The notes under the pieces: generated by a model
Told to the model about the DNA's origin: nothing
Databases searched by the model: none
The model's input: only the letters and a program-made list of their open reading frames with translations
Shown: positions 1,139 through 31,344 of the stretch, piece by piece
Layout of the letters: the number at the start of each line of letters is the position of its first letter
Position numbering within the stretch: position 1 is the stretch's first letter
Position numbers and translations under genes: made by a program
DNA from: Gemmatimonadota bacterium
GTDB taxonomy: Bacteria > Gemmatimonadota > Gemmatimonadetes > Gemmatimonadales > GWC2-71-9
Assembly (NCBI GenBank): GCA_003251175.1
Contig: QKHC01000015.1
Location: 1 to 43,151, forward strand
DNA length: 43,151 bases
Direction of reading: 5' to 3'

Positions 1139-1825
1139 TCAGCTCCCCCTGCGAATCGCGGTCGCGCGCGTCGCCGTGGTCTCACGACGACGGGTACCGC
1201 CCGTAGTTCGATCAGCGACCCTCGCCACGTGCACGATGCGCTGCACCACCGTCACCGTCGTCGCCGCCGCCAGCACGACGACGATCCAGAACAGCAGGAT
1301 CCCATCGCGACCCGGGCCGAACGCCAGACACGGCGCGCCCAGCACCACGATGCGCTCGGCCCGCGCGGCGATCCCGACCCGGCAGTCCAGCCCCAGACCC
1401 TCCGCCCGCGCCCGCGTGTAGGAAACGAGCAGCGAGGCGGCGAGCGCCACCATCGCGGCGAGCACCGCCGCGACGAGTCGCTCGGGCGCTACCCCACCTC
1501 GCAGGAAATACGCGGCGATCCCGGCGAACAGCGCCGACTCGCCGACGCGGTCCAGCGTCGAGTCGTAAAAAGCGCCGAAGGTCGTGGCCCGTCCACCCTG
1601 GCGGGCGACCTGGCCGTCGAGAATGTCGAACAACCCGCTGAGCAGCAGCAGGAACCCCGCCCAGTGGACCGCGCCCACGCCGAATGCGCCCCCCGCCGCC
1701 ACGATGACCAGTGTCCCGACGGTGGTGATCGCGTTGGGGTGCACCCCTGCCCGGATCAACGCGCGCGCCAGGGGACCAATGAGGCGCACGAACCCGTCCT
1801 TGACCGCCTGCGGGATGACGTTCAT
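1139..1825 (-). CDS. CDP-alcohol phosphatidyltransferase, probable phosphatidylinositol-phosphate synthase
   Basis: A 228-residue membrane enzyme with about six hydrophobic segments. Residues around 68-92 carry the complete CDP-alcohol phosphotransferase signature: DGQVAR, eight residues, G, three residues, D, three residues, D. Family members swap the CMP of CDP-diacylglycerol (or another CDP-alcohol) for an alcohol or phospho-alcohol. Because inositol-phosphate synthase follows after 2 nt, the likely acceptor is inositol 3-phosphate, giving phosphatidylinositol phosphate at the inner membrane. Di-myo-inositol phosphate synthesis or plain phosphatidylglycerol-phosphate synthesis are alternatives. 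I chose the ATG at 1825 because the protein begins there with a normal family N-terminus; upstream codons run into namZ. There is no clear Shine-Dalgarno sequence. The last 25 residues are Arg/Thr-rich and probably cytosolic. No phosphatase gene is visible nearby. Confidence 0.85.
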   Translation of the reverse strand: MNVIPQAVKDGFVRLIGPLARALIRAGVHPNAITTVGTLVIVAAGGAFGVGAVHWAGFLLLLSGLFDILDGQVARQGGRATTFGAFYDSTLDRVGESALFAGIAAYFLRGGVAPERLVAAVLAAMVALAASLLVSYTRARAEGLGLDCRVGIAARAERIVVLGAPCLAFGPGRDGILLFWIVVVLAAATTVTVVQRIVHVARVADRTTGGTRRRETTATRATAIRRGS

Positions 1826-1853
1826 AGCGCGGGGGGAAGGTAACCGCCCGCTG

Positions 1854-1886: not shown

Positions 1887-3128
1887 CTAGTAAAGCAAGT
1901 ACTTGGCGCGCCGCTCGTTGAAGCGTTCGCGGTCCGCGCGCCACACCGCCCACACCGAGTCGAGCGGCGTCGCCGTCTCCAGCGCCCGCCGCAGCGCACT
2001 GTCAGCAGCGAGCAGATCGAACCAGTCACGGCGGAAGGCGAACGAATCAGGATGCGCCGCACGGATCGCCGCCAGCAGCGCGACCGCCACCCGGGGCGGA
2101 TCATACCGGGCGCGATCGGTCACGTGCAGCTCGACTCCGCGCAGCGGGACGCCGTCGTACTTCGCGTCTCCCGGTGCGCGCGGCGTAAACCGAGTGGCCT
2201 GGATCTCGACGCCCGCCGTGACCGACGGGCTGCCTCCGCGAAGGGCGTCCAGCACCGCGTCCGGATCGAGCCACGGTGCGCCCACGATTCGAAACGCCCG
2301 ATCGGTGCCCCGCCCCACCGACAGGTTGGTGCCCTCGAAGAGACACAAACCCGCGTAATGCATCGCGCTCTCCAAATCCGGCAGATTGGGAGAAGGGCGC
2401 ACCCAGGGCAGGCCGGTCTCGTCGTAGTACATGGTGCGTCGCCACCCGGCAGCGGGGACGACGATGAGGCGCGCGCCGATGTCCAGCACGTCGTTGGCAA
2501 GACGGGCGAGCTCCCCGATCGTCATGCCGTGTCGCATGGCCACCGGGAGGAACCCCACCGGCTGGGTCTTCGGCGCCACGACCGTGCGCATGTTGCCCTG
2601 CACCACGCTGCCCCCGAGAGGGTTGGGGCGGTCGAGGATCACCACCGGGGTGCCACGGGGCGCCAGCGCGCGCATCAGGAACACCGCGTACCAGACATAG
2701 GTGTAGTAGCGGGCGCCAACATCCTGCAGATCCACCAGCAGCAGGTCGAGCGAATCGAGGGCGCGGAGATCCGGTACGCGCGCCCCCGTGTAGAGACTGT
2801 AGATTGGGAGCCCGGTGACCGAATCAACGTCATCGGGCAGATCCGGGCGGTCCGCGCTGCCGCGGAATCCGTGCTCGGGACTGAACAGGGCGACGACGCG
2901 CACGTCGGGCGCGGCCCGCAGCAGATCCACGTCACGGCGGCCGAGTCGATCGACGCCGCTGTGGTTGGTGAGCAGGCCGACGCGCCGCCCCCGCACCAGA
3001 TACGCGGAGTCGGTCAGCAACACTTCGATACCCGGGCGCACCCCACCCACGGGCGGGGGCGCCGGCGCCGGCCGACAGGCGCCGATCGCGACAACCAGCA
3101 GTCCGAGGGTGAGATGATTCGCGCGCAT
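1887..3128 (-). CDS. namZ: NamZ-type exo-beta-N-acetylmuramidase lipoprotein (DUF1343, GH171)
   Basis: 413 residues, the usual length for this family. NamZ removes N-acetylmuramic acid from the non-reducing end of murein glycan fragments. The N-terminus is a short lipoprotein signal with lipobox AIGAC (Cys18), so the enzyme is exported and lipid-anchored. Family hallmarks are visible: GLLTNHSG at 51-58, SPEHGFRG at 83-90 with the conserved Glu85, VDLQDVGARYYTY at 132-144, and DRPNPLGG further on. It starts head to head with nagZ, whose product removes the alternating GlcNAc residue, and the amiE homologue follows nagZ. The same three activities are clustered in Bacillus subtilis, which supports the assignment. 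The ATG at 3128 lies 12 bases inside the nagZ reading frame, so the two genes overlap antisense at their 5' ends. Confidence 0.92.
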   Translation of the reverse strand: MRANHLTLGLLVVAIGACRPAPAPPPVGGVRPGIEVLLTDSAYLVRGRRVGLLTNHSGVDRLGRRDVDLLRAAPDVRVVALFSPEHGFRGSADRPDLPDDVDSVTGLPIYSLYTGARVPDLRALDSLDLLLVDLQDVGARYYTYVWYAVFLMRALAPRGTPVVILDRPNPLGGSVVQGNMRTVVAPKTQPVGFLPVAMRHGMTIGELARLANDVLDIGARLIVVPAAGWRRTMYYDETGLPWVRPSPNLPDLESAMHYAGLCLFEGTNLSVGRGTDRAFRIVGAPWLDPDAVLDALRGGSPSVTAGVEIQATRFTPRAPGDAKYDGVPLRGVELHVTDRARYDPPRVAVALLAAIRAAHPDSFAFRRDWFDLLAADSALRRALETATPLDSVWAVWRADRERFNERRAKYLLY

Positions 3129-4862
3129 AGGTCCTTGCTGTGGTGCTGGCTGGCTGCCTGTGGAACCGCACCCGCCACGGCGCCGGCGCCCCCCGCTCCG
3201 TCATCCAACGCGCCGAGCGTGGACTCCCTGCTGGCCACACTCACCACTCGGCAGCAGGTCGCTCAGCTCGTGATGCCGTGGCTGCTGGGAAACTACACCG
3301 CTCGCGACGACTCGATATTCCTGGTCGCGCAGCACTGGGTTGCGGAGCTCGAGGTCGGTGGCATCATCATCTCCGTCGGATCGCCCATCGACATCACCGC
3401 CAAGCTCAATGCGCTGCAACAGGCGGCCCCCCTGCCGCTCCTGGTGTCCGCCGATCTCGAGTGGGGCGCCGGCATGCGACTGCGGGGGGGCACTGCGTTC
3501 CCTCCCCTGATGGCGGTCGGAGCCACGGGCGATCCGCTCGACGCCTACACGATCGGGCGGGCGGCGGCGCTCGAGGGCCGGGCGGTCGGGATCCACGTCG
3601 ATTTCGCCCCGGTCGCGGACGTCAACAACAACCCGGCGAATCCGGTGATCAACACCCGGGCCTTCGGCGAGGACCCCGAGGCCGTCGGCCAGCTGGTGGC
3701 GGCGTTCGTGCGCGGGCTGCGGGAGCACGGGATGCTGAGCACGCTGAAGCACTTCCCGGGGCACGGCGATACGGAAATCGACTCGCACATCGGGCTCCCG
3801 GTGATCCGCGGAGACTTCGCCCGCATGGACTCGATCGAGCTGGTGCCGTTCCGCGCCGGCATCGCCGCCGGCGCCGACGTGGTCATGAGCGGCCACATCG
3901 CCTTCCCTGACTTCACCGGGAACGAAGATCCGGCAACGCTGTCTCCCGCCGTGATGACGGGGCTGCTGCGTGACTCGCTGAAGTTCCGCGGCCTGGTGGT
4001 CACCGACGCGCTGGTCATGGGTGCCATCGTGTCGAAGTTCGGGGCCGGCGAAGCCGCGGTGCGCGCGTTCGAGGCGGGATCGGATCTCCTCCTGATGCCC
4101 GCCGATCCCGACTCCGCGATCGCGGCGATGGTCACCGCCGTGGAACAGGGTCGCATCGCGCCCGAGCGGCTGCAGCGCTCGGTGCGGCGAGCCCTCGAGA
4201 CCAAGGTGGCCCTGGGGCTGTTCCGGCGGCGTACGGTCCCCATCGACTCGGTGATGGACCGGGTGGGCGTTCAGGAGCTTCTGCGCCAGGCGGACGACAT
4301 CGCGACACGGGCGGTCACGCTGGTCCGCGACACGATCGGCACTGTGCGGACATTGCGCGCCCGCCCCCAGCGGCTGGCCGTGATCGCCTATGGCGACGAG
4401 GCCAACGGGTCCGTGGCGGCAACCCTGATCGACGCGCTGCGGGCCGGGGGCGACACGGTTGACGACTTCCGGCTGTGGCCCATGTCGGGACCCGTGTCCT
4501 ATGACAGCGCCCGCGCCGTGATCAATCGCGCACCAACCACCGTGTTCGTGGCCAACGTGCGTCCGCTGTCGTGGAAGGGGTTCATCGCGTTGCCGGATTC
4601 GCTCGCCGCGCTGATCACCGCGACCGATGCGGTCCGGCCCACGGTGCTGGTGTCACTCGGCAGTCCCTATCTGCTCACCCAGACTCCCACCGTGGGCGCC
4701 TACCTGCTCGCGTGGAGCGGCGTGCGGGCGGCCGAGCGCGCCGTGGCCCGCGTCCTCCTCGGGCAGGTGCCGATCGGCGGACGACTCCCGATCCGCATCC
4801 CGCCAGGCTATCCGATCGGGCATGGCCTCACCCTGCCCGTCGAAGCCGTGGACCGCAACTGA
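3114..4862 (+). CDS. nagZ: exported beta-N-acetylglucosaminidase, GH3 NagZ family, lipoprotein
   Basis: 582 residues: a lipoprotein signal with lipobox LAAC (Cys16), a Pro/Ala linker, a GH3 catalytic barrel at about 38-380, then a second C-terminal domain to the end. This two-domain plan matches the secreted B. subtilis enzyme rather than the short cytosolic E. coli NagZ. The NagZ signature is intact: KHFPGHGDTEIDSH at 212-225, with the Asp223/His225 acid-base dyad, and VVTDAL at 295-300 with nucleophile Asp298. It should release GlcNAc from murein fragments after NamZ has exposed it. The ATG at 3114 has a good Shine-Dalgarno sequence (GAGGGTG) and yields the signal peptide; the open frame extends far upstream but that part is antisense to namZ. 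It ends in TGATG, coupling it to the next gene. Confidence 0.93.
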   Translation: MIRAHRSLLWCWLAACGTAPATAPAPPAPSSNAPSVDSLLATLTTRQQVAQLVMPWLLGNYTARDDSIFLVAQHWVAELEVGGIIISVGSPIDITAKLNALQQAAPLPLLVSADLEWGAGMRLRGGTAFPPLMAVGATGDPLDAYTIGRAAALEGRAVGIHVDFAPVADVNNNPANPVINTRAFGEDPEAVGQLVAAFVRGLREHGMLSTLKHFPGHGDTEIDSHIGLPVIRGDFARMDSIELVPFRAGIAAGADVVMSGHIAFPDFTGNEDPATLSPAVMTGLLRDSLKFRGLVVTDALVMGAIVSKFGAGEAAVRAFEAGSDLLLMPADPDSAIAAMVTAVEQGRIAPERLQRSVRRALETKVALGLFRRRTVPIDSVMDRVGVQELLRQADDIATRAVTLVRDTIGTVRTLRARPQRLAVIAYGDEANGSVAATLIDALRAGGDTVDDFRLWPMSGPVSYDSARAVINRAPTTVFVANVRPLSWKGFIALPDSLAALITATDAVRPTVLVSLGSPYLLTQTPTVGAYLLAWSGVRAAERAVARVLLGQVPIGGRLPIRIPPGYPIGHGLTLPVEAVDRN

Positions 4863-6064
4863 TGCGGGCCTTGCTGGTGGTCGCCGCGTCGACCGTCTGG
4901 GCCTGCGCCGGAGCCACGCCTCCGCCGCCGGCGACGCCCTCGTCGCCACCGCCCGGCACCGCGGCGGCATTGGGCTTCGACAGCGCCGGCCTCGCGGCGG
5001 TCGTGACCTACCTGCGCAGCGAGGTGGACAGCGGCGCGTTTCCCGGCGCCGTCGTCGCCGTGGGGCGGCACGGCCGGCTGGCGCTGCTGGCTGCCGTCGG
5101 TCACTACGGCGCGACCGACTCCCGCCCCGTCACCATCGGCACCGTGTATGACCTCGCCTCGCTCACCAAAGTCGTGGGCCTGACCACGGCGGTGCTGCTG
5201 CTCGTGGACGAGGATCGGCTGGGACTCGACGACCCGGTGCAGCGCTACGTACCCAGGTTCCAGGGGCCGGGGAAGGACGGCGTGACCATCCGGCATCTGC
5301 TCACGCATTCATCCGGCCTCCCCGCGTGGCGTCCGCTGTACACCGAGGCGACGACGCGCGCGACCGCCATGCGTCTGGCCGACACGACGGAGCTGCTCGC
5401 GCCCCCGGGCACGACGATGCAGTACTCGGACCTGGGCGCGATCGTGCTGACCCAGGTCGTCGAGTCAATCACCGGCGAGCGGCTCGACCGCTTCGTCGCC
5501 GCCCGGGTGTTCGGTCCCCTCGGCATGGTCGAGACCCGGTTTCTACCCCCGGACGCGTGGCGCGACCGCATTGCGCCAACCGAGCGCAGTCAGGACGGCA
5601 CCACGATCCGCGGCACGGTGCACGACGAGAACGCGTGGCGACTGGGAGGGGTGTCCGGTCACGCCGGGCTGTTTTCGACTGCCACCGACCTGGCGCGCTT
5701 CGCGGCGTGGCTGATGGCGGCGCGCACCGGGGGACCCTCCCCCGCCACGGCCGCGCCGCGCCCCTCCCCAGCCCTGGTGCGCGAGTTCACCACGCGCCAG
5801 GGACTGCCCCCCGGGAGCACCCGGGCGCTGGGGTGGGATACCCCCTCCGACTCCGGCTACTCCAGCGCGGGAACCCGGCTTTCGCGGCGATCGTTCGGGC
5901 ATACGGGGTTCACCGGCACGTCGATCTGGATGGATCCGGACCGGGATCTGTTCGTGATTCTGCTCACCAATCGGGTGAACCCGACACGGGAGAATGTCCG
6001 CATCGGGCAGGTTCGCCCTCGGGTGGCGGACCTCGTGGCCGCTGCCCTACGCGACCAGGGGTGA
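4862..6064 (+). CDS. amiE: serine-hydrolase (beta-lactamase fold) lipoprotein, probable AmiE-like N-acetylmuramoyl-L-alanine amidase
   Basis: 400 residues, translationally coupled to nagZ: the ATG overlaps its TGA by one base. A signal peptide with a lipobox-like AC at Cys15 is followed by a Pro/Ala/Ser linker and a class-C beta-lactamase-type domain. Catalytic motifs visible are SLTK (Ser100, Lys103), YSD at 188-190 and HTG at 347-349. The stretch VHDENAWRLGGVSGHAGLF at 253-271 is typical of the B. subtilis AmiE (YbbE) subgroup. That enzyme strips the stem peptide from muramyl residues, and its gene lies beside nagZ and namZ, as here. The likely role is therefore to free MurNAc of peptide at the cell surface or in the periplasm. 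A DD-carboxypeptidase or esterase of the same fold is the alternative. Confidence 0.85.
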   Translation: MRALLVVAASTVWACAGATPPPPATPSSPPPGTAAALGFDSAGLAAVVTYLRSEVDSGAFPGAVVAVGRHGRLALLAAVGHYGATDSRPVTIGTVYDLASLTKVVGLTTAVLLLVDEDRLGLDDPVQRYVPRFQGPGKDGVTIRHLLTHSSGLPAWRPLYTEATTRATAMRLADTTELLAPPGTTMQYSDLGAIVLTQVVESITGERLDRFVAARVFGPLGMVETRFLPPDAWRDRIAPTERSQDGTTIRGTVHDENAWRLGGVSGHAGLFSTATDLARFAAWLMAARTGGPSPATAAPRPSPALVREFTTRQGLPPGSTRALGWDTPSDSGYSSAGTRLSRRSFGHTGFTGTSIWMDPDRDLFVILLTNRVNPTRENVRIGQVRPRVADLVAAALRDQG

Positions 6065-6087
6065 CCAGCGCGACTGGCGCAGCGGCG

Positions 6088-6117
6088 TTGACACTGCGGG
6101 GGACGACTACCTAAGTT
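6088..6117 (+). promoter_or_regulatory. sigma-70-like promoter for the Fe-S carrier gene
   Basis: TTGACA at 6088-6093 is a perfect -35. After 18 bp comes TAAGTT at 6112-6117 (or CTAAGT after 17 bp) as -10. Transcription would begin near 6124, 15 bp before the ATG at 6139, leaving room for the GGAGG ribosome-binding site. It lies just after the amiE stop, so the Fe-S gene can be expressed independently of the murein genes. Confidence 0.6.
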
Positions 6118-6138
6118 GTTGCGAGACGGAGGGATGAC

Positions 6139-6495
6139 ATGACGACGACCCAAAAGCCGACGATTACGCTCACGTTGACGCCCCGCGCGGCGGAGGAAGT
6201 CCGGCGCTTCATCGCCGAAGAGCCGGCGCCAGCCGAGACCGTCGGTCTGCGGGTGGGCGTGATGCCGGGCGGATGCTCCGGCTTCCGCTACTCGCTCAAT
6301 CTCGAAGATCAGGCCGCAGCGGACGACGTGGTGATCGAGTCCGAGGGCATCCGGTTGTTCGTGGACGAATTCAGCGGCGCCTATCTCAACGGAACGACTA
6401 TCGACTACAAGAGCAACTTCCAGGAGTCGGGGTTCGCGTTCGAGAATCCCAATGCGACTGGCGGCTGCGGCTGCGGATCGTCGTTCACCGTCTGA
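6139..6495 (+). CDS. A-type iron-sulfur carrier protein (IscA/ErpA/SufA family)
   Basis: 118 residues with the three conserved cysteines of the HesB/IscA fold: Cys46 in GGCSGF and Cys110/Cys112 in GGCGCGSSF near the C-terminus. The protein accepts Fe-S clusters from the Isc or Suf machinery and passes them to apoproteins in the cytosol. The final GGCGCGSSF and the segment IDYKSNFQESGFAFENPN are typical of this family. An ATG at 6139 follows a strong GGAGGG ribosome-binding site. No other Fe-S assembly gene is nearby; the gene has its own promoter and a strong hairpin after it, so it looks like a self-contained unit set into the murein-salvage locus. Which of erpA, iscA or sufA it equals cannot be settled from sequence alone. 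Confidence 0.93.
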   Translation: MTTTQKPTITLTLTPRAAEEVRRFIAEEPAPAETVGLRVGVMPGGCSGFRYSLNLEDQAAADDVVIESEGIRLFVDEFSGAYLNGTTIDYKSNFQESGFAFENPNATGGCGCGSSFTV

Positions 6496-6526
6496 CGGCC
6501 GCGTGCCGCACGTGCTGATGGCCTCG

Positions 6527-6551
6527 CGGGCCCGCGCGTTGCGCGGGCCCG
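6527..6551 (+). terminator. strong hairpin after the Fe-S carrier gene
   Basis: Perfect 11-bp stem (CGGGCCCGCGC with its complement) and a 3-base loop GTT. The following bases are TCGTGCTTGG, without a true T-run. It ends 21 bp before the symporter start, so symporter and kinase may rely on read-through or on a promoter not recognised here. Confidence 0.6.
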
Positions 6552-6572
6552 TCGTGCTTGGAGGTGCCTGAG

Positions 6573-8015
6573 GTGCGCACGCTCGACTGGGCGGTGATCG
6601 CCGCGTATTTCGTGGCGGTTCTCGTCACGGGACTCGTGGTGGGCCGCGGCCAGCGAGGCGCGGCCGACTACTTTCTGGGGCGCCATGGCCTGCCGTGGTG
6701 GGCGATCATGTTCTCGATCGTCGCCACCGAGACCTCCGCACTCACCGTCATTTCCATCCCGGGCATCGCGGCCCGCGGTGATCTCACATTCCTTCAGCTC
6801 ACCTTCGGCTACGTCGTGGGACGCATCGGTGTCGCCGCCCTGCTCCTCCCCGGGTACTTCCATGGCACGCAGGAAACGGCCTACCAGCGTCTCGAGCACC
6901 GCTTCGGCCCGCTGGCGCGCCGCGCCGCGTCGGCGGTGTTCCTGATCACCCGGGCGCTCGGCGACGGGGTGCGCGTCTTCGCCACCGCGATCCCGCTTGC
7001 CATCATCACCCACTGGAGCGTGCCCGTCGGGATTCTCGCCACCGCGGTCGTGACCATTCTCTACACCTGGGCGGGCGGCCTGCGCGCGGTCGTCTGGGTG
7101 GATGTCGTGCAGCTGGGCTTCTACGTGCTCGGTGGGGTGGCCACCCTCGCCGTGGCCCTGCACCTCGCGGGTGGCGCCGCCAGCCTGACTCGCGCGCTCG
7201 ACGCGGGTAAGCTGACGATGATCGACCCCGCCGTGTCCTTCGCCACCACGTACACGCTGTGGGGAGGCCTGCTCGGCGGCGCCCTGCTGTCGGCGGCGTC
7301 GCACGGGACCGACCACCTCCTGGTCCAGCGCCTCCTGGCCGCGCGGGATCTGCCGGCGGCGCGCCGCGCGCTGGTCGGCTCCGGGTTCTTTGTGGTGCTC
7401 CAGTTCGCCCTGTTTCTCATGGTAGGCACCAGCCTGTGGCTCGCCGGAGCCGCGCGTCCGGAGCTGGCCGGAGACGCCATCTACCCCACATTCGTCGTCG
7501 AGCACCTGCCGCCCGGGCTGAGCGGGCTGGTGATCGCCGCCATTCTGGCGGCCGCCATGAGCACCGTGGCGTCGTCGCTCAACTCGCTGTCGTCGGCCAC
7601 GACGCACGACTTCTACGCTCCCCTGACGGGCCGACGCGACGAGACGCATCTGCTACGCGTGGGACGGTGGCTCACCCTGGTTTGGGCCGGCGTGCTCGTG
7701 GGCGGGGCGATGCTGTTCCGTGACCGCGACACACCCGTCGTCGTGCTGGCATTGTCGATCGCGTCGCTCACCTATGGCGCGCTGCTCGGCACCTACATCC
7801 TCGGTGGATGGTGGCGGCGCGCGCGCGAGCGTGATGCCATCGTGGCGATCGTGGCCGGTGTCGTGGTGATGACACCCGTCGTGCTGGGCTGGCCCTCCCG
7901 CGCCCTCGCCGGCCTGGCCTGGCCATGGTACGTGCCCCTCGGGACGCTGATCACGGCGGCCGTGGGCGTTGCGTCGTCGGTAATCTGGCGCTCGCGCGAC
8001 AAGGCGGAGGCGTGA
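6573..8015 (+). CDS. sodium:solute symporter (SSS family), likely amino-sugar importer
   Basis: 480 residues with about 13 hydrophobic helices. SSS features include an N-terminal RGQRGAADYFLGRHGLPWW segment, WAGGLRAVVWVDVVQ in the middle, and AAAMSTVASSLNSLSSATTHD, the Na+-site helix typical of the family. The GTG at 6573 is preferred over the TTG at 6558, because GGAGG at 6560-6564 sits 8 bp before it. The substrate is inferred from context: the gene is coupled (4-bp overlap) to a BadF-type sugar kinase and lies behind nagZ and amiE, so MurNAc and/or GlcNAc are the best candidates. SSS-type porters next to murein or sialic-acid genes are known in other bacteria, but sequence alone does not give substrate. 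Confidence 0.88.
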   Translation: MRTLDWAVIAAYFVAVLVTGLVVGRGQRGAADYFLGRHGLPWWAIMFSIVATETSALTVISIPGIAARGDLTFLQLTFGYVVGRIGVAALLLPGYFHGTQETAYQRLEHRFGPLARRAASAVFLITRALGDGVRVFATAIPLAIITHWSVPVGILATAVVTILYTWAGGLRAVVWVDVVQLGFYVLGGVATLAVALHLAGGAASLTRALDAGKLTMIDPAVSFATTYTLWGGLLGGALLSAASHGTDHLLVQRLLAARDLPAARRALVGSGFFVVLQFALFLMVGTSLWLAGAARPELAGDAIYPTFVVEHLPPGLSGLVIAAILAAAMSTVASSLNSLSSATTHDFYAPLTGRRDETHLLRVGRWLTLVWAGVLVGGAMLFRDRDTPVVVLALSIASLTYGALLGTYILGGWWRRARERDAIVAIVAGVVVMTPVVLGWPSRALAGLAWPWYVPLGTLITAAVGVASSVIWRSRDKAEA

Positions 8016-8941
8016 CAGAAAGGACCGACGAGACGGCTCGCGCGATCGGGATCGACGCTGGCGGATCGCGGACCACCGCCGTCCTCGTGGGCGCGGACGG
8101 CGCCGAGCTCGGTCGCGCACAGGGATCTGGCGGCGCGGTGCGACCGGGGGAAGCGGCGCGGGCGGCCGCGACCATCCTGGCGACCGCACGGCGCGCGGCG
8201 GGAGCGGCCGGGATCGCGCTGCCTGCGCCACGGGCGCTGGTGGGCGCGGCGGGTACCGGGCGCGAGCGGGAGCGGGAGCAGCTCACCGCAGCGTTGCGCG
8301 AACCAGAGCTGCTGGCCCATGAGGTGCGCGTGATGGGCGACGTCGAGCTGCTGCTGCACGCCGCCTTCGCGTCGGGTCCCGGCATCGTGTTGGCAGCGGG
8401 GACGGGATCCGCGGCCTATGCCCGGACCGCGGACGGCGCGGTGCGTGGCGCCGGCGGTCACGGCTGGCAGCTGGGCGACGCCGGCGGCGGGTACTGGCTG
8501 GGGAGGCGGGCCCTGGCGCTCATCTCGCTGGCACGGGACGGCATCGGGGATGCCGGGACGCTCGCTGACCGCGTCCTGGGCATCCTGGCCCTCTCCTCGT
8601 GGGACGACCTCGTGCGCTGGGCGACGAGGGCTGACCCGCCGCAGGTGGCCGCGCTCGCACGGGAGGTGCTGCAGGCGGCGGGCGATGGCGACAGCGCCGC
8701 GCGGATGCTGGTGCGGGACGCCGCGGCGCAGCTGGCCGCGCTGGCCGTCGCACTGCGGGGGCACTTCCCCGCGAGCGTCCCACCCCCGGTGGCGCTGGCG
8801 GGAGGACTGCTGGGCGCGGGGTCTGCGTTGCGGACCGCGCTCGCCGAGCGACTTGGCGAGCTGCTCCCGGGCGCGGAGCTGCGGGGAGACGTTCCCGATC
8901 CGGCCCTGACGGCGGCGCGACTCGCGCTGGCGGCCGGGTAG
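8012..8941 (+). CDS. BadF/BadG/BcrA/BcrD-type ATPase, probable N-acetylglucosamine/N-acetylmuramic acid kinase
   Basis: 309 residues, start GTG overlapping the symporter stop in GTGA. The ASKHA-fold motifs are visible: phosphate-1 loop GIDAGGSRTTAVLVG at about residues 12-26, GAAGTGRER, phosphate-2 loop AAGTGSAAYA, HGWQLGDAGGGYWLG (the G-LGDEGSG-W-G signature of NAG kinases) and the adenosine-loop region ALAGGLLG. Members related to eukaryotic NAGK and clostridial MurK phosphorylate GlcNAc and/or MurNAc. Behind a symporter and murein hydrolases, this is the expected cytosolic step that traps imported amino sugars. A MurQ etherase, needed to turn MurNAc 6-phosphate into GlcNAc 6-phosphate, is not in the window. 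Whether it acts at C1 or C6 cannot be seen. Confidence 0.85.
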   Translation: MTERTDETARAIGIDAGGSRTTAVLVGADGAELGRAQGSGGAVRPGEAARAAATILATARRAAGAAGIALPAPRALVGAAGTGREREREQLTAALREPELLAHEVRVMGDVELLLHAAFASGPGIVLAAGTGSAAYARTADGAVRGAGGHGWQLGDAGGGYWLGRRALALISLARDGIGDAGTLADRVLGILALSSWDDLVRWATRADPPQVAALAREVLQAAGDGDSAARMLVRDAAAQLAALAVALRGHFPASVPPPVALAGGLLGAGSALRTALAERLGELLPGAELRGDVPDPALTAARLALAAG

Positions 8942-11882: not shown

Positions 11883-11904
11883 TCGAGCGCCGATCAGCGC
11901 TCGA
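11883..11904 (-). terminator. hairpin over the stop codon of the second TonB-like gene
   Basis: Eight-bp stem TCGAGCGC with its complement and a 6-base loop that contains the TGA stop (11894-11896). There is no T-run. It separates the TonB region from the transporter pair. Confidence 0.4.
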
Positions 11905-12673
11905 TCGTGATGGGATAGATGCTGGCCACCGCTGCGCCTTCGCGGGTCTTGGCCGGCTCGAACCGGTACCCGCGCATGCGCACCTCGAAGTCGCGGCGAC
12001 AGGACTTGTCGCGCGGCGGTGGCTGAATCTCCACGTCCGTCACCCGCCCGTCGGCGGCGACCCAGAAGCGCACCTGGAAGCGGCTCCCCGGCGAGACACA
12101 CTCCGGCGGGAGGATGATGCCGCGCGGCGTGGCGAGGAGAATGTAACTGTCGTCGCCGCCCGAGCCAGGCCCCTGTCCCGTTCCGACCCCGGTCCCGCTG
12201 CCGGACCCGCTGCCGCCGCCGGTCCCGGTGCCCGACCCCGGTCCTCCGCCCGTGCCGGCTCCCGCACCGGGGACGAGCGCGTCGGTCGCGCCGTGCGGCA
12301 CTTCGATCCGCGCGAGCTCGTCGAGGGACATCACTTCCGGCGTGGGAATGTTCTCAACCGCGATAGGCGGGACCGGCTCCTCAGGCTCGGGCTCCGGCTC
12401 GGGCTGCGCCGGGGCCGCGTACGCCTCCAGCGCGATGACCGAGGAAAGCGATCGTCCGCCCCCGCCACCGCCGCCGCGGGGACCGATCCCGCCGCCACCG
12501 CCGCCGCTGTCGAGCAGCGATTTGGCCGGCCACCACAGTGCGGCGAGCAGGCCAGCGTGCACCAGCACGGACACCGCGACCCCGCCCCACGGCCGGCGCC
12601 GCTCGCGCGGCAGGGCGAGTGTCGGCGGCGGAGGCGGACCGCGCCGCGGGCCAACGTCCGGAAGCCCATGCAT
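11894..12673 (-). CDS. glycine-rich TonB-like energy transducer
   Basis: 259 residues. Order: a short basic, proline-rich cytosolic N-terminus; one membrane helix at about 30-49; a Gly-rich stretch (two runs of 6-7 glycines at 57-73); a Pro-Glu section at 91-103 (PEPEPEPEEPVPP); a long Gly/Ser/Thr linker at 135-173 built of GTG/GSG units; and a compact C-terminal domain from about 175 with the TonB-like pattern FWVAADGRVTDVEI. Two cysteines (192 and 225) in that domain could form a disulfide in the periplasm. Lying behind exbB and two exbD genes, it probably couples the proton-driven ExbB/ExbD motor to an outer-membrane partner. The linker is unusual, since most TonB proteins use Pro-Lys/Pro-Glu rods. 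A TATTAC box lies 8 bp before the ATG, so it may also be transcribed alone, nearly leaderless. Confidence 0.75.
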   Translation of the reverse strand: MHGLPDVGPRRGPPPPPTLALPRERRRPWGGVAVSVLVHAGLLAALWWPAKSLLDSGGGGGGIGPRGGGGGGGRSLSSVIALEAYAAPAQPEPEPEPEEPVPPIAVENIPTPEVMSLDELARIEVPHGATDALVPGAGAGTGGGPGSGTGTGGGSGSGSGTGVGTGQGPGSGGDDSYILLATPRGIILPPECVSPGSRFQVRFWVAADGRVTDVEIQPPPRDKSCRRDFEVRMRGYRFEPAKTREGAAVASIYPITIER

Positions 12674-12739
12674 GCGTCGTGTAATACCCTAACGGGCGCC
12701 CGAGGTGCGCGGGACCCCTGTCCGTGGGCAGAGACGACG

Positions 12740-12763
12740 ACGGGGGCCCCGTGGGACCCCCGT
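12740..12763 (-). terminator. hairpin between exbD2 and the second TonB-like gene
   Basis: Seven-bp stem ACGGGGG with its complement around a 10-base loop, 24 bp after the exbD2 stop in transcription order. No T-run. It may reduce read-through into the Gly-rich TonB-like gene, which starts 113 bp downstream of exbD2. Confidence 0.4.
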
Positions 12764-12786
12764 GCGATCGTCGGCTTCGGCCGCGC

Positions 12787-13215
12787 TCAGCCGCCGCCCT
12801 CGGTTGGCTCGGGCGGGGTGAAGCCAATCACCTGGATCCCGGCCCCGGTGGCGATGTCCATCGCCTCGACGACGTCGCGGTACTTGCGGTTCGGCGCCGT
12901 CTTGATGAACAGCAGCTTCGCGGGCCGTGGATCGAAGATCTGGTGCAGGGCGCCGTCCAGCTGGCTCTTGCCGTACGGCTGGTTGTTGATCGCATACGAC
13001 CCGTCGGCTCTCAGCTCCAGCACGATCTGACTGCTCTGGGTCTGCTGCTGGCGCTGCTGACGCTGCTCGGGCGGCACCTGCACCTCGAACGCGCGCCGCG
13101 ACAGCGGCAGCGTGATCATGAAGATGATCAGCAGCACCAGGAGCACGTCGATCATCGGCGTCACGTTGATGTCGTGAGTCGGACCGCCGCCCCCGCCTCC
13201 CGCCGCCATAGCCAT
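12787..13215 (-). CDS. exbD: ExbD/TolR-family proton-channel subunit (second copy)
   Basis: 142 residues. After a short Gly-rich N-terminus comes the ExbD signature DINVTPMIDVLLVLLI at 15-30, with the membrane Asp23 that carries protons. A periplasmic domain follows, rich in Gln (QRQQRQQQTQ) and ending in VIGFTPPEPTE. It assembles with ExbB in the inner membrane to energise TonB. I chose the ATG at 13215, 7 bp after the stop of the first exbD; a second ATG at 13209 is possible. Two different ExbD proteins in one operon often form a mixed motor in Bacteroidota- and Gemmatimonadota-like systems, but that is inference here. Confidence 0.9.
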   Translation of the reverse strand: MAMAAGGGGGGPTHDINVTPMIDVLLVLLIIFMITLPLSRRAFEVQVPPEQRQQRQQQTQSSQIVLELRADGSYAINNQPYGKSQLDGALHQIFDPRPAKLLFIKTAPNRKYRDVVEAMDIATGAGIQVIGFTPPEPTEGGG

Positions 13216-13222
13216 GACTGGG

Positions 13223-13690
13223 CTACTCCCTTCCCGGCCGCTCGCCGCGATTCTGCTCGGTGATCGTCCCGAGCACGCGGACGCCGGCCTTGCGCGCGAT
13301 TTCCACCGCCTCCTGGATGCGGGCGAACTCGAGGTTCTCATCCGCCTTCAGGAAGAGGATCTTGTCCACCGACCGCGTGGCGTAGAGCGACCGCAGCTGG
13401 GCCTCGAGCTCGTCCTCCGGCACGTAGCGCATGCCGGTGTACTTGCCGTCCGGACCGGTGATGTCGATGTAGTAGCGCCCCGCCACGTCGATCCCCAGCC
13501 GGATCTCACCTTCCTCTTCTTCCTTGGCCTTGGGGTTGTCGGCGCGGGGCACCGCCGCCTGGAAGCCGGCCGTGATGGCCGGGGTGACGATCATGAAGAT
13601 GATCAGCAGCACCAGCATCACGTCAATCATCGGCGTGACGTTGATGTCCGCCGCCACAGCGGCCCGGGTGTTAGTGGCTGATAGGGCCAC
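13223..13690 (-). CDS. exbD: ExbD/TolR-family proton-channel subunit (first copy)
   Basis: 155 residues with the signature DINVTPMIDVMLVLLI at 15-30 and proton-carrying Asp23. The periplasmic part differs clearly from the second ExbD: it has an acidic KAKEEEEGE stretch near 54-62 and a longer peptidoglycan-side domain. The ATG at 13690 lies 20 bp inside the end of exbB, so translation is coupled. It is the inner-membrane partner of ExbB in the TonB motor. Confidence 0.92.
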   Translation of the reverse strand: MALSATNTRAAVAADINVTPMIDVMLVLLIIFMIVTPAITAGFQAAVPRADNPKAKEEEEGEIRLGIDVAGRYYIDITGPDGKYTGMRYVPEDELEAQLRSLYATRSVDKILFLKADENLEFARIQEAVEIARKAGVRVLGTITEQNRGERPGRE

Positions 13691-14420
13691 TGGACTGCGT
13701 CGCTTTCTGCGCCTGGAATTCCTTGGTGAAGATCGAGCGCCCGAACTCCGAGCCCACGCTCTTGATCAGATAGTCGATCAGCTCCTTGGACAGGTACGTC
13801 ATCTCCACCGCCAGGAAGTCGAGCTTGGAAGTGAAGTAGTTGTAGAGCCACACCGCCGGGATCGCGACCAGCAGACCGAAGGCGGTCGTGATCAGCGCCT
13901 CGGCGATACCGCCCGTGATCGCGGCCAGGGACCCCGACCCGCCGGCCGCTGCCATGCCCTGGAAGGCGTTGACGATGCCCATGGTGGTGCCCAGCAGACC
14001 GACGAACGGCGCCGTCGCACCGGTGGTCGCCAGCACGCCCAGGCCGCGCTTCATCTCGGAGGTGATGATCAGCATCTGCCGCTCAACCGCTCGCTCAGCC
14101 GAGTTGATGTCAGCGGCGGTGATCGTCGCCCGGTCGCGCAGCAGGGGCTTCACCTCGGACAGCGCTTCGGCCAGCACGCGCGCCACGTGGCTGCCCTTGT
14201 ATTCCTTCTTTTCAGCCAGCTGAATGGCCCGCTCGATCTGCTCTTCCTGCAGCGCTCGCGAGAACTGCGGGGTGAATTGCCGAGTCGCCCGCTGCGACTT
14301 CCACAGGTAGAACCACTTGGTGATCGTGACCGTCCACGACCAGAGCGACATGATCAACATCGTGACCACCACGCCCTTCGCGAACATGCCCATCGACTGC
14401 CACAGTTCGGCGTAACTCAT
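13671..14420 (-). CDS. exbB: ExbB/TolQ/MotA-family proton-channel protein
   Basis: 249 residues with three membrane helices: one near the N-terminus and two flanking the conserved GLLGTTMGIVNAFQGMA loop and ITGGIAEALITTAFGLLVAI, the MotA/TolQ/ExbB signature. With ExbD it forms the inner-membrane proton channel that drives TonB. It is preceded by AAGGAG at usual spacing and lies 45 bp behind tonB. A TolQ role with TolR-like partners is possible, but the flanking tonB gene and the absence of tolA, tolB and pal favour a TonB motor. Confidence 0.93.
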   Translation of the reverse strand: MSYAELWQSMGMFAKGVVVTMLIMSLWSWTVTITKWFYLWKSQRATRQFTPQFSRALQEEQIERAIQLAEKKEYKGSHVARVLAEALSEVKPLLRDRATITAADINSAERAVERQMLIITSEMKRGLGVLATTGATAPFVGLLGTTMGIVNAFQGMAAAGGSGSLAAITGGIAEALITTAFGLLVAIPAVWLYNYFTSKLDFLAVEMTYLSKELIDYLIKSVGSEFGRSIFTKEFQAQKATQSSGPISH

Positions 14421-14465
14421 CCTGGCTGACTCCTTGTGAGAAGCGGCGGTCGCCCGCCGGTGACC

Positions 14466-15149
14466 CTATCGTCCCCGCAGCTTGAAATCGATCGGCAGCC
14501 GCACCAGCACCCGCACCGGACGACCGTGCACCCGTGCGGGGCGGAACAGCGCCTGTCGCATGTAGTTCTTCGCGGGCTGGTCGAACCCGGGATGGGGGCT
14601 CTGTACGATCTTGATGGAATTGGGCTCCGCCCGGCCCGACGTATCGATGATCGCCTCGACCAGCACGCGGCCCTGGATCTGCGCCTGGCGCAGCAGCTCC
14701 GGGTACTGCAGTGGCGGTCCGGAGAGTGGCTCCGGCTTCTCCTCAACCACTGACTCGAGGAACACCTGATTGGCCGTCGGCTCGATTCCGGTGGCCACGC
14801 CCCCTTCCACCCCGACGCCGGAGTAGTCGCGGGGATCGAACGTCTCACTCAGGTCGATCGGCGGAATGTCGGTCGGGATCTCGGTCGGCGCCACGATCGT
14901 CTGGAAGCCCTTCAGCGGCACGTCGAGGACGACCTGCGGTTGCTCCTCGGGCTTCTGCTCTTCCTGCTTTTCGGAGAGATACACCATGGCGGTGTCGATG
15001 ACCACTTCTTCGGCCGCTTCGCCCGCCGACAGCGTCGCGTACACCGCCCCCGCCACGAGCGCCGTGTGGAAGATGATCGAAAAGAGACTCGCGGCCGAGC
15101 CGCCCTTGACGTTGTGCTTGCGCTTGGACTCGATCAGGGTATCGAACAC
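14466..15149 (-). CDS. tonB: energy transducer TonB
   Basis: 227 residues: short basic cytosolic start, one membrane helix at about 20-41, a Glu/Pro-rich spacer (EEQKPEEQPQ) and a C-terminal TonB domain from about 140 (YPELLRQAQIQGRVLVEAII) to the end. It spans the periplasm and passes energy from ExbB/ExbD to outer-membrane receptors. The start is GTG at 15149 with GGGAGG 6 bp upstream. It heads the tonB-exbB-exbD-exbD unit. No TonB-dependent receptor lies in the window, so its client is unknown. The 175-bp space before it holds a short palindrome TGGAGGCTCCA near 15210 but no clear promoter. Confidence 0.9.
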   Translation of the reverse strand: MFDTLIESKRKHNVKGGSAASLFSIIFHTALVAGAVYATLSAGEAAEEVVIDTAMVYLSEKQEEQKPEEQPQVVLDVPLKGFQTIVAPTEIPTDIPPIDLSETFDPRDYSGVGVEGGVATGIEPTANQVFLESVVEEKPEPLSGPPLQYPELLRQAQIQGRVLVEAIIDTSGRAEPNSIKIVQSPHPGFDQPAKNYMRQALFRPARVHGRPVRVLVRLPIDFKLRGR

Positions 15150-19057: not shown

Positions 19058-19876
19058 TCACCGCAGCCCCGACAACTGAATCCCGCGCACGAATGCTCGC
19101 TGGGCGACGAGGAACAGCAGCAGCAGCGGCAGCACCCCCGCGACCGCAGCCGCCATCTGGTAGGGCCAGTTCGTGTAGTAGACGCCGTGGAAGCTGGCGA
19201 TTCCCAGCTCCATCACCTGCATATCGAGCGAGCGCGTCACGATCAGCGGCCACAGGAAGTTCTTCCACTGGTCCACGAAGGCGAACACGAACAGCGTGGC
19301 GAGCGCCGGCCTGGTGAGCGGCAGGATGATGCGGCGGAAAACCGTCCATTCCCCCGCGCCGTCGAGACGCGCGGCATCCTCGAGGTCGCGTGGCAGCGTC
19401 TGAAAGAACTGCCGCAACAGGAAGATGCCCCACACCGATACCACCTCGGTCGAGATCAGACCGGCATAACTGTCGACCCACCCGAGCGCATTGACGAGGA
19501 GGAAACGCGGAATCAGCAGCACGATGGTCGGCACCATCATCACCGTCAGCACCGTGAAGAAGACGCGCTCGCGGCCGGGGAACCGCAGGCGAGCGAGCGC
19601 GTACGCCGCCGTGGCGCTGGTCGCCACCTGCGCGACGGCGACGCTGCCCGCGAACACGAGACTGTTCAGAAAGAACCGCGCGAACGGCAACGCGGTGAGG
19701 GCCGCCTGATAGTTGCCAGGCCGCGGGTGGCCGGGCCAGAGCGCCGGCGGGAACCGCAGCACCTCGAACTCGTCCATCAACGACGTGGAGAGCATATAGA
19801 GGAACGGTGCCACCATCGACAGGCCCAGGAGCCCGACCAGCACCCGCCCCATCCATCGCAGCAGCCGGTCAGCCAT
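19058..19876 (-). CDS. carbohydrate ABC transporter permease, MalG type
   Basis: 272 residues with six hydrophobic helices and the EAA loop EDAARLDGAGEWTVFRRIILP-like segment at about 165-185, which docks on the ATPase. It is the second inner-membrane permease of a CUT1-type sugar importer. The start ATG at 19876 overlaps the end of the long permease gene by 8 bp. Length and motif are standard for the MalG/UgpE branch. Substrate cannot be read from it. Confidence 0.93.
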   Translation of the reverse strand: MADRLLRWMGRVLVGLLGLSMVAPFLYMLSTSLMDEFEVLRFPPALWPGHPRPGNYQAALTALPFARFFLNSLVFAGSVAVAQVATSATAAYALARLRFPGRERVFFTVLTVMMVPTIVLLIPRFLLVNALGWVDSYAGLISTEVVSVWGIFLLRQFFQTLPRDLEDAARLDGAGEWTVFRRIILPLTRPALATLFVFAFVDQWKNFLWPLIVTRSLDMQVMELGIASFHGVYYTNWPYQMAAAVAGVLPLLLLFLVAQRAFVRGIQLSGLR

Positions 19877-21707
19877 ACTCCACCCGCCGCCCCAGCAGCC
19901 GGAACTGCACCCAGGTCACGCCGAGCAGGATCACGAAGAGCGCGAGCGCCAGCGCGCTGGCGTGACCGAACTGGAGGAACTCCCATGCCGTCTGATAAAT
20001 GCGATAGACGATCACATCGGTGGCGTGCAACGGCCCGCCGTCCGTGAGCACATAGATGTACGTGAAGACCTGGAATGAGCCGATCACGCCGGTCACCAGG
20101 ACGAACAGCGTGACGGGCCGAAGCAGCGGGAGAGTGACCCGCCAGAAGCGTTGCCAGGCATTCGCGCCATCGACCCGGGCGGCATCATGATAGACCTGCG
20201 GAATGTTCTGCAGGCCCGCGACGAAGATGGTCGTCTGGTACCCCAGCTGGACCCAGGTGCTGATCACCATCACCGCCAGCAACGCGGTGTGCGGATCGCC
20301 GAGCCAGTCCACGGCAGGCACACCCACTGCGCCCAGCACCCAGTTCACGAGGCCGAAATCGGGGCTGAGCATCCACTGCCAGACGAGGGCAACGGCGACT
20401 ACCGACGCCACGTAGGGCATGAAGAAAACCGTGCGCGCGAGGCGGGTGAGGCCGCCGTGATGCTGCAGCACCAGCGCGACGCCGAGGGCCAGCATCATCG
20501 TCACCGGCACGTACAGCGTGTACAACAGCGTGTTGCGGAGCGAGACCCACGCCAGCGGGTCAGCGGCCGCCGCGGCGAAGTTGCGCAGGCCGACGAATCG
20601 CCGCACGGGATCCAGCAGATCCCATTCGTGCAGCGACAGCCAGGCCGCGAACAGCATCGGCCCGAACGAAAAGACGACGAGGTGCAGCGCCGCCGGACCG
20701 AGGAACGCCCAGGCCGTCACGATCTCGCCCAGGCGACGCGGACTGGCGGCGGCGACGGCCCCCCACCCCGCCACCGCCACGCCCACCACACCCACCAGAG
20801 CGAGACCAAGGGCAGCGAGGGTCCATCCACCCTGGCGCGCCTCGAGCGGCACCATCGTCGCGCTGAGCCATCGCCGCCGGCCCAGCCGGATGGGGGCAAC
20901 CGCCCGGGGACCCCGCGCGGTTTCAACCCGCCGGATCATCGTTCCCTGTGCGCTGTCGGCTTCGGCCAGGGTGACACCGGTACCCTGGACGACGCGCGCG
21001 AGCTGCGCCAGCGGGACACGCGAGCGCACCACCGGGAGGCGGGCCGGCGCGTCCCCGATCAGGGTCCGGATGTCGCGCAGCGCGCGATCGCCGCTCCAGG
21101 CCGCCGCGCCGCGCACCACCGCCGCGCACATCCCGCCGTGCACCAGGGCGGCGGCGGCGAAGGTGGCCATCGTCACGCGGCGCAACCCGCGCCCCCTCCC
21201 CACTGCCCACACCCCGCCGAGCGCCGCCAGCGCGACCGCGAGCCCGGTCCACACCGGGCGTCGATCCCGGGGTGCAGAGCGACGACCGACCCACGCGGCG
21301 CCCACGACGTCCCACGCCTCTCGATCCTTGAGTGGCACGAGGGTCCCGGCACCGAGCCGCACAGGTGACTCGAGGCGCTGCAGGTCGCGCCAGGTGGCGC
21401 TCGGCAGGCCGGGCCCGCCGGCGGCGAGCAAGGGAGTACGCACCGCGTACACGTCGACCGGCGCCGACCAGCCGGGCAGCGTCCTCAGCCCACGGGCCGT
21501 CACCAGCAGCTGCCGGGGCTCGTATCCCGGGCGGCCGGGTGCCGCGGGGGTCACCAGGGCCACGTACCCGGCCACCGCGTACGCCACGCGCTCGCTGAGG
21601 CTGTCCTCGGCACGCGCCGTCGCCAGGCGGGCCGCCGCGATGGGGAGCGTGACGGCGCCGGTCCCGGCGATTGCGGCGAGAAGGCGCCAGGCGAGCTGCG
21701 GCCTCAC
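19869..21707 (-). CDS. carbohydrate ABC permease, MalF type, with a long sensor-like N-terminal extension
   Basis: 612 residues. The last 280 or so form a normal six-helix MalF/UgpA permease with its EAA loop at about 508-530 (DAARVDGANAWQRFW). The first 320 are not usual: helix 8-27, an extracytoplasmic stretch at 28-152, helices 153-170 and 177-199, a second extracytoplasmic stretch at 200-294, and helix 295-320. This resembles two Cache/CHASE-like outer segments hung on four helices, though I cannot assign a family. E. coli MalF also has extra helices and a periplasmic loop, but placed differently. The GTG at 21707 overlaps the binding-protein stop (GTGA) and no later start would keep coupling. 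The extension might hold the binding protein or sense substrate. Confidence 0.88.
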   Translation of the reverse strand: MRPQLAWRLLAAIAGTGAVTLPIAAARLATARAEDSLSERVAYAVAGYVALVTPAAPGRPGYEPRQLLVTARGLRTLPGWSAPVDVYAVRTPLLAAGGPGLPSATWRDLQRLESPVRLGAGTLVPLKDREAWDVVGAAWVGRRSAPRDRRPVWTGLAVALAALGGVWAVGRGRGLRRVTMATFAAAALVHGGMCAAVVRGAAAWSGDRALRDIRTLIGDAPARLPVVRSRVPLAQLARVVQGTGVTLAEADSAQGTMIRRVETARGPRAVAPIRLGRRRWLSATMVPLEARQGGWTLAALGLALVGVVGVAVAGWGAVAAASPRRLGEIVTAWAFLGPAALHLVVFSFGPMLFAAWLSLHEWDLLDPVRRFVGLRNFAAAAADPLAWVSLRNTLLYTLYVPVTMMLALGVALVLQHHGGLTRLARTVFFMPYVASVVAVALVWQWMLSPDFGLVNWVLGAVGVPAVDWLGDPHTALLAVMVISTWVQLGYQTTIFVAGLQNIPQVYHDAARVDGANAWQRFWRVTLPLLRPVTLFVLVTGVIGSFQVFTYIYVLTDGGPLHATDVIVYRIYQTAWEFLQFGHASALALALFVILLGVTWVQFRLLGRRVEYG

Positions 21708-23014
21708 GGTGTTTCCACCTCGTGCCGCGCGAGAATCCGATCCACGGCTCGGGCCATCTCTCTCGCGGCGGCTGCCGGGTCCTCCCCGCGCAGCGTGATG
21801 CGGTCGATGAGGTCGGGCAGGACGGCCTCGATCTCCCGCCACTGCGCGATCCGCGCCCCCCAGGGCGCTCGCCCATGTGCCGTCGCGCGCCGGAACACCG
21901 CTTCCCACCCGAGCGTATCCGCTTCAGCCATGTGCTGGGCCACCGCGGAGCGGCTGGGCAACTCCAGTCGGGCACCGGCACGGATCGCGAGCGCGAGCGA
22001 GTCGGCCAGAAACGCGGCGAGGCGCACCGAATGGCGGCGATGCGGCGCGCCGGCCGGCACCGCCAGACCCGACGCGTAGATCACCGTGGCCGGCGACGCG
22101 CCCGCGCGGTGAGGGATCTCGGCGAAGCCGATGCGCAGTCGCCCCTCCAGCACGTACGGCAGGAAGTTCGGCACCCAGAAGTGCCCGGCGGTAATCATGG
22201 CTACGCGCCCCGTGTAGAACAGGCGGAGGTTGTCGCCCAGCGAGCGGCGCAGCGTGTGAAACCGGGGCGCGATCCGGTCCTGCGTCACCCACCCGGTATA
22301 CCAGCTGATTGCCGCGACCGTGGCTGGCGAGTCGAGGCACCCCGTCGCGCGCCGGCCCCCGGGGCACAGCAGGTCTCCGCCTCCAGCCAGGATCCAGGAA
22401 TTCCACAGGAACACCCGACGGTCGAACACCGTCCCCCACTGATCCACTGTCCCGTCACCATCGGTATCGCGCGTCAGCGCCGCTGCGGCACGACGAAAGT
22501 CCTCCCACGTCCAGTCGTCCTGTGGATACGCCAGGCCGGCGCGATCGAACAGGTCCTTGTTGAAGGCGAGGACCATCGGGGTGTACCCCTTGGGCAACGC
22601 ATACACCGCCGCGCCGCGACGGAAGATGTCGAGCACCGTCGGCTCGTAGTCATCCAGCGTGATGCCGACGCGATCAAGATAGGGGCGGAGATCGAGGAGC
22701 ACGTCGCGCTGCGTGAACGCGGGGACGTCGATGTTGTCGAGAAGAAACACATCGGGTGGCGCCCCAGCAGCGATCGACGTGAGCATCCGCTCGCGATACT
22801 CCGCCTGTCCACTTCCGGCGCTCTGCTGTGTCACCCGGACCCCAGGGACGGCGTCCATGAAGGAGTCGAGCACGACCTGCTCGATCCCCGCTTCGAGATA
22901 CGAAGCCCAGTTGGCAAGCTCGAGGGTGACCGCATCGCGGGGGGCGTGGTCAGGGATGCACGCCAGCGCTCCCACGCACGGCGACAGCAGCGCCGCGGCC
23001 CACGGGAACCTCAC
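21704..23014 (-). CDS. extracellular solute-binding lipoprotein of a sugar ABC importer (family 1 type)
   Basis: 436 residues. The signal ends in lipobox ALAC (Cys19), so the protein is lipid-anchored in the periplasm. The mature part has the family pattern: LELANWASYLEAGIEQVVL near the start, GSGQAEYRERMLTSIAAGAPPDVF, AVYALPKGYTPMVLAFNKDLFD, and DWTWEDFRRAA. These are typical of MalE/UgpB-like proteins binding oligosaccharides or glycerophosphodiesters. GTG start at 23014 overlaps the ATPase gene's TGA in GTGA. It delivers substrate to the two permeases encoded next. The ligand is unknown; two large glycosidases encoded upstream of the operon hint at an oligosaccharide. Confidence 0.92.
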   Translation of the reverse strand: MRFPWAAALLSPCVGALACIPDHAPRDAVTLELANWASYLEAGIEQVVLDSFMDAVPGVRVTQQSAGSGQAEYRERMLTSIAAGAPPDVFLLDNIDVPAFTQRDVLLDLRPYLDRVGITLDDYEPTVLDIFRRGAAVYALPKGYTPMVLAFNKDLFDRAGLAYPQDDWTWEDFRRAAAALTRDTDGDGTVDQWGTVFDRRVFLWNSWILAGGGDLLCPGGRRATGCLDSPATVAAISWYTGWVTQDRIAPRFHTLRRSLGDNLRLFYTGRVAMITAGHFWVPNFLPYVLEGRLRIGFAEIPHRAGASPATVIYASGLAVPAGAPHRRHSVRLAAFLADSLALAIRAGARLELPSRSAVAQHMAEADTLGWEAVFRRATAHGRAPWGARIAQWREIEAVLPDLIDRITLRGEDPAAAAREMARAVDRILARHEVETP

Positions 23015-24078: not shown

Positions 24079-24089
24079 GGCGCGAGCGA

Positions 24090-31268: not shown

Positions 31269-31344
31269 GCCCCGACTCCGGTCGGTGGAGGGCACAGCGC
31301 TGAGGACAATGTCGACGCGGGAACCTCCCCTGGCAAACGACGCG

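Follow-up and report, generated by a model that had tools for sequence, protein, structure and literature searches.

A block of genes from a Gemmatimonadota genome probably encodes a system for the salvage of murein sugars that combines cutting outside the cytoplasm, import by a sodium:solute symporter of the SSF family, and phosphorylation by a kinase. Gemmatimonadota are bacteria of soil and water, and a search of the open-access literature returned no paper on murein salvage in this phylum. The window analysed here, a stretch of 43,151 nucleotides with a GC content of 70%, is a whole contig (C58) of a 2.2-Mb MAG, G000, rated 56% complete; family counts were made over 61 genomes, namely, this one and relatives from its order. 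The five gene identities proposed in the initial annotation (NamZ, NagZ, amidase, symporter, and kinase) were borne out by Pfam and NCBIfam scans (Table 1), and the active-site motifs are intact in the window translations. The locus supplies transporter and kinase candidates that can be cloned, which makes a phylum-wide salvage route testable.

Table 1. Features of the contig (window coordinates) and loci of a second SSF family in other genomes
Feature	Position	Strand	Basis or remark
myo-Inositol-1-phosphate synthase (Ino1), truncated at contig end	1..1136	-	PF07994 + PF01658
PI-phosphate synthase-like gene (PIPS), conserved next to NamZ	1139..1846	-	PF01066; NF045883 below cut-off; synteny
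NamZ-type exo-beta-N-acetylmuramidase (GH171), predicted lipoprotein	1887..3128	-	PF07075 + PF20732, full length
NamZ/NagZ head-to-head overlap, bounded by the two start codons	3114..3128	.	15 bp, ATGATTCGCGCGCAT
NagZ-type GH3 beta-N-acetylglucosaminidase, predicted lipoprotein	3114..4862	+	PF00933/PF01915
YfeW/AmiE-like PF00144 serine hydrolase, predicted lipoprotein	4862..6064	+	PF00144, 5.5e-72
ErpA/IscA-type Fe-S cluster protein	6139..6495	+	PF01521, TIGR00049
Hairpin, 11-bp perfect stem, 3-nt loop	6527..6551	+	terminator-like in relatives
SSF sodium:solute symporter, predicted murein amino-sugar importer	6573..8015	+	PF00474, TIGR00813
MurK/NagK-type amino-sugar 6-kinase	8012..8941	+	PF01869; NagK_SO3507 (NCBIfam)
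TonB/ExbB/ExbD-type energising genes	11894-15149
Sugar ABC importer	19058-24435
Two MGH1-like glycoside hydrolases	26104-31565
Ser/Thr protein kinase with TPRs	32779-35700
Large Big_1/Big_2 protein with Kelch and glyoxal-oxidase-like domains	37356-41300
SSSq loci L201-L206, L224	genomes G040, G046, G048, G060, G025, G016, G032		SSF after nagZ

In the pathway that we infer, including the cell location of its enzymes, the substrates of its symporter and kinase, and the direction of flux, the lipoproteins NamZ and NagZ would release single MurNAc and GlcNAc residues from non-reducing murein ends in the periplasm or at the outer membrane, and the PF00144 hydrolase would split the peptide from MurNAc. 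The SSF symporter would then bring the free sugars in together with Na+, and the MurK-type kinase would convert them with ATP to GlcNAc-6P and MurNAc-6P. MurNAc-6P would pass to MurQ, encoded elsewhere with AnmK and a cytosolic NagZ, and GlcNAc-6P to a NagB-LmbE fusion protein where one is present, its LmbE domain possibly replacing NagA.

The NamZ protein combines PF07075 (3e-68, 229 bits) and PF20732 (7e-43, 147 bits) in one chain, has the solved relatives 4k05 and 4jja, and is predicted from its sequence to have exo-N-acetylmuramidase activity. NagZ matches PF00933 (5e-85), its best solved relatives include 3sql, 6k5j, and Bacillus subtilis YbbD/NagZ (3bmx), and its translation carries the KH..PG.G....DSH loop intact, as KHFPGHG...DSH (KHFPGHGDTEIDSH). 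The PF00144 hydrolase has the SxxK, Yx(N/D), and HTG motifs (SLTK, YSD, and HTG), and its best NCBIfam model is PBP4B/YfeW (NF002968), matched below the cut-off (145 of 385 bits). Its neighbours, together with the fusion of NagZ and amidase into one polypeptide in Palauibacter (L175) and in L168, indicate that it is probably a MurNAc-L-Ala amidase; in the window, the two genes overlap by one base. The initial annotation regarded all three hydrolases as lipoproteins. A crude scan agrees: in the window, each has a lipobox-like N terminus (AIGAC in NamZ), as do 27 of 50, 27 of 37, and 18 of 49 relatives of the three proteins, respectively, compared with 0 of 67 in the kinase control.

In a correction to the initial annotation, NamZ lies on the opposite strand, head to head with NagZ. 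An overlap of 12 to 15 bp between the two starts (ATG..CGCGCGCAT) is shared by the window and close relatives (L121-L127, L143, L062, L059, and L101). In 11 of 11 cases, the NamZ Shine-Dalgarno sequence (AGGAG or AAGGA, expected by chance at about 4 to 6% per site) is found upstream of its ATG within NagZ codons, so that there is no intergenic space between these genes. The signal peptides of both proteins start M(x)RAH-like. Further downstream, an ErpA/IscA-type gene that had been overlooked in the annotation sits between the hydrolase and the symporter, and a hairpin separates it from the latter; in close relatives, the hairpin is followed by a T-run, which has been lost in the window. These features argue that the block, although a conserved neighbourhood, probably comprises three or more transcription units, best seen, on the DNA evidence, as NamZ with two inositol-lipid genes, NagZ-hydrolase-ErpA, and symporter-kinase. 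The symporter starts with a GTG preceded by GGAGG, and the kinase gene overlaps the symporter gene by 4 bp. The inositol-lipid genes Ino1 and PIPS, downstream of NamZ, are kept there across the order.

The test named beforehand as capable of refuting a functional link, namely, whether relatives keep the genes together, has come out in its favour, and the link holds. The kinase was found in 58 of the 61 genomes and NamZ also in 58; 43 of the 58 kinases are encoded no more than 14 kb (mostly 3 to 8 kb) from a NamZ, which is not attributable to chance; of the remaining kinases, many come from short contigs or lie close to the end of one. Three families of the order, as well as named GTDB genomes, share the recurrent arrangement Ino1 < PIPS < NamZ / NagZ > amidase > (second SSF gene) > ErpA > (NagB-LmbE) > symporter > kinase. 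Of 49 loci that have wide flanks, 42 carry the kinase, 43 NamZ, 39 the amidase, and 32 NagZ; as the named loci were picked by symporter similarity, these counts describe the surroundings of the window-type symporter and not all genomes. ErpA is kept in place within the order, whereas loci of more distant Gemmatimonadota lack it. In 12 distant loci (Palauibacter and others), NamZ, NagZ, the amidase, the symporter, and mostly the kinase form a group from which ErpA and the inositol genes are missing. ErpA is therefore not the cause of the linkage, and these loci tell the functional core apart from hitch-hikers. A second amidase-NagZ-NamZ-PIPS-Ino1 copy with 88.9% DNA identity occupies positions 1-5916 of contig C14 of G000 (L101), up to the contig end, and probably stems from another strain or species binned into the same MAG.

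Orthologues of the symporter adjoin the kinase in relatives, as in all kinase loci first inspected (L013-L042). By sequence, its best solved relative is 5nv9, a sialic acid symporter whose record names it a putative sodium:solute symporter; none of the relatives found is a characterised SSF member close enough to fix the substrate. In a maximum-likelihood tree, the locus symporters form a cluster that is broken only by three Rubrivivax sequences and an Ignavibacteria-type group. The Rubrivivax symporters (MAGs L150, L173, and L187) are nested among Gemmatimonadota sequences, have no murein genes around them, and are probably the result of transfer from Gemmatimonadota or of mis-binning. In the Ignavibacteria-type genomes (L171, L184, and L186), the symporter is found beside the second SSF family, without the kinase or murein genes. 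Such symporters without murein genes, like the hairpin that parts symporter-kinase from NagZ-amidase, speak against murein-sugar import. They would suit a neighbourhood of mixed function, in which a murein module adjoins a symporter-kinase pair for some other solute (e.g., sialic acid, glucose, or glucosamine), as would the 5nv9 match and the conserved ErpA and Ino1-PIPS genes, which show that unrelated genes also stay. We nevertheless regard such an arrangement as improbable, given that the linkage is kept in distant lineages without ErpA and Ino1-PIPS, that NagB joins the locus, and that the kinase belongs to the MurK/NagK family, with ROK kinases further away.

The reported absence of MurQ is true of the window but not of the genome, in which murQ (G000:C132:4819-5688) forms a run with anmK and the gene for a cytosolic GH3 NagZ. 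MurQ exceeds the cut-off in 55 of the 61 genomes and AnmK in 53; G016 and G009 were rejected as murQ-less genomes, their anmK lying at a contig end. Within the fetched flanks of the window-type symporter, murQ, anmK, and ampG were found in none of the 49 loci. In 41 of 57 murQ/anmK regions, a gamma-glutamyltransferase gene is found close to murQ and on the other strand (the product of L043:5738-7516 has a lipoprotein-like N terminus); it could possibly have a role in stem-peptide breakdown. NagA had been noted as absent from the window, and this absence extends further: the family search found canonical NagA over the cut-off in 0 of 61 genomes, with short partial matches only, so that the view of it as merely missing from the window was rejected. 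A check for nagB, proposed at the same time, found none in the 56%-complete MAG, but the gene is common in relatives, where NagB mostly shares one chain with a PIG-L/LmbE deacetylase domain (NF002557, PRK02122; e.g., L051:6288-8294). The fusion gene (NF002557) occurs in 14 of the 49 loci, mostly between ErpA and the symporter, and is part of the locus in many Gemmatimonadaceae. With canonical NagA missing, NagB-LmbE may do its work, carrying out both steps. The locus can hardly be called self-contained, as it was at first: erpA and the hairpin interrupt it, it lacks murQ and usually nagB, which are encoded elsewhere, and the search for canonical nagA was negative.

As for other routes of entry, no MurP-type PTS EIIBC importer was detected: PTS EIIC is absent from G000 and present in only 3 of the 61 genomes, so import must largely do without a PTS. 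AmpG of substantial score was found in 11 of 61 genomes; at a rated completeness of 90% or more (44 genomes), AnmK is present in 40 and a full-length AmpG homologue in only 6. Neither textbook importer thus appears to be available to most species.

The AlphaFold model of the kinase is of high confidence (mean pLDDT, 93) and matches sugar kinases of the MurK/NagK family. By profile, the nearest of all solved chains is Clostridium acetobutylicum MurK (8zo3; E = 1.7e-62); by fold, this enzyme (E = 2.6e-20; TM about 0.8, 24% identity in the structural alignment) ranks behind Sulfolobus tokodaii hexokinase and human NAGK. The window kinase also resembles NagK families (NF046058, 1zc6, and human NAGK) and is closer to the MurK/NagK family than it is to ManNAc kinase and other ROK kinases. 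According to PMC5790795, which cites Reith 2011, C. acetobutylicum MurK acts on both MurNAc and GlcNAc, with a slight preference for GlcNAc. In Tannerella forsythia MurK, a small residue before the catalytic Asp and the lack of a Glu/His clash at positions 133-135 make room for the lactyl ether (PMC10465942). The window kinase has Gly109 before the catalytic Asp110 and GGH at 133-135, with His aligned with Leu135. The rule is thus compatible with MurNAc binding. It is not decisive, however, as the corresponding residue of C. acetobutylicum MurK is Asn, never found there among 27 aligned kinases, so that this enzyme breaks the first part of the rule; the T94/S133-L135 rule was therefore rejected as a decider of MurNAc specificity.

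Genomic context bears on both sugars. On the MurNAc side are NamZ in the locus, the profile match to C. acetobutylicum MurK, and the genomes G019 and G036, which have MurQ and the kinase but neither AnmK nor PTS EIIC, so that the kinase is the only visible source of MurNAc-6P there. On the GlcNAc side, nagB is found in the symporter flanks and murQ, anmK, and ampG never are, which fits GlcNAc better than MurNAc, and G042 (98% complete) has the kinase with neither MurQ nor AnmK over the cut-off. It could be, then, that the symporter and kinase handle GlcNAc only, that NamZ and the amidase merely expose GlcNAc ends, that MurNAc stays outside or uses another carrier (e.g., the second SSF), and that MurQ-AnmK is a separate anhydro-sugar pathway, as would accord with NagB-LmbE in place of MurQ in the locus, the NagK-like features of the kinase, and G042. 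This is possible but rather unlikely, because NamZ and the kinase each occur in 58 of 61 genomes and mostly adjoin, G019 and G036 retain MurQ without AnmK or PTS EIIC, and the nearest solved kinase by profile has dual specificity. A dual MurNAc/GlcNAc kinase resembling the Clostridium MurK fits best and reconciles the evidence on both sides.

The second SSF family (SSS2) is often encoded in the locus of relatives between the amidase and ErpA; the weak symporter matches there belong to a second SSF gene and do not represent a fragment of the first. A paralogue, SSSq, directly follows murQ-anmK-nagZ in seven genomes (Table 1), whose murQ regions all lack AmpG. The murQ-anmK-nagZ operon of G039 and G041 has AmpG itself at its 3' side, and in six others AmpG is convergent to the operon. 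AmpG and the murQ-linked symporter do not overlap in their occurrence, but this was set aside as proof that they exclude each other, because 8 versus 7 murQ regions are too few for significance. The shared operon slot is suggestive, with weak statistics, that an SSF symporter may have replaced AmpG. That the window symporter itself imports anhydro-MurNAc or disaccharides in the place of AmpG is very hard to credit, even though AmpG is missing from most AnmK-bearing genomes and an SSF gene of the second family is part of the murQ-anmK-nagZ operon in 7 genomes: the symporter of that operon belongs to the second family (SSSq/SSS2) and not to that of the window, periplasmic NamZ and NagZ would already have cut disaccharides, and AnmK is never encoded near the window-type locus. 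As an extension of the salvage pathway, we tentatively propose a division of labour, in which the window-type SSF symporter and MurK-like kinase would import GlcNAc and MurNAc, and SSS2 (in the locus) and SSSq (in AmpG's place) would import anhydro sugars or disaccharides instead of AmpG. If so, murein-sugar import in Gemmatimonadota would have passed to Na+-coupled SSF symporters.

Each half of the proposed system has a known counterpart. In function, YbbC of B. subtilis is NamZ. The amiE-nagZ-ybbC genes of that organism adjoin murQRP, so that its murQ-murR-murP-amiE-nagZ-namZ (ybbC) cluster encodes the same three secreted hydrolases, NagZ, AmiE, and NamZ (PMC5061867). There, import is by the PTS (MurP) and MurQ is encoded in the cluster, whereas here an SSF symporter and an ATP-dependent kinase are found, MurQ is encoded elsewhere, and PTS EIIC is nearly absent. 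The Escherichia coli murQ operon includes yfeW (PMC5061867), which encodes the best NCBIfam match (YfeW/PBP4B) of the window PF00144 protein; in contrast, murQP-yfeW relies on PTS import, and NamZ and a secreted NagZ are absent from the operon. The counterpart of symporter-kinase is T. forsythia murT-murK-murQ, likewise with an importer of the sodium symporter superfamily and an ATP-dependent kinase in a didermic bacterium, in which free MurNAc enters via MurT and passes to MurK and MurQ (PMC5790795, PMC10465942); the suggestion that the Gemmatimonadota genes represent a different solution was therefore overstated. The two kinases are remotely related by sequence. An SSF-type importer beside a MurK-type kinase is common to both, but MurQ is encoded in the T. 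forsythia operon and in 0 of the 49 loci here; T. forsythia also has AmpG in the same transcription unit (PMC7670621) and is a MurNAc auxotroph. The combination of symporter and kinase is thus not new as a principle but joins two known halves in another phylum. The novelty lies in a version that extends across a phylum, does without a PTS and mostly without AmpG, and is coupled to the NamZ-NagZ-amidase trio, as well as in a second SSF symporter family in AmpG's place beside murQ-anmK-nagZ.
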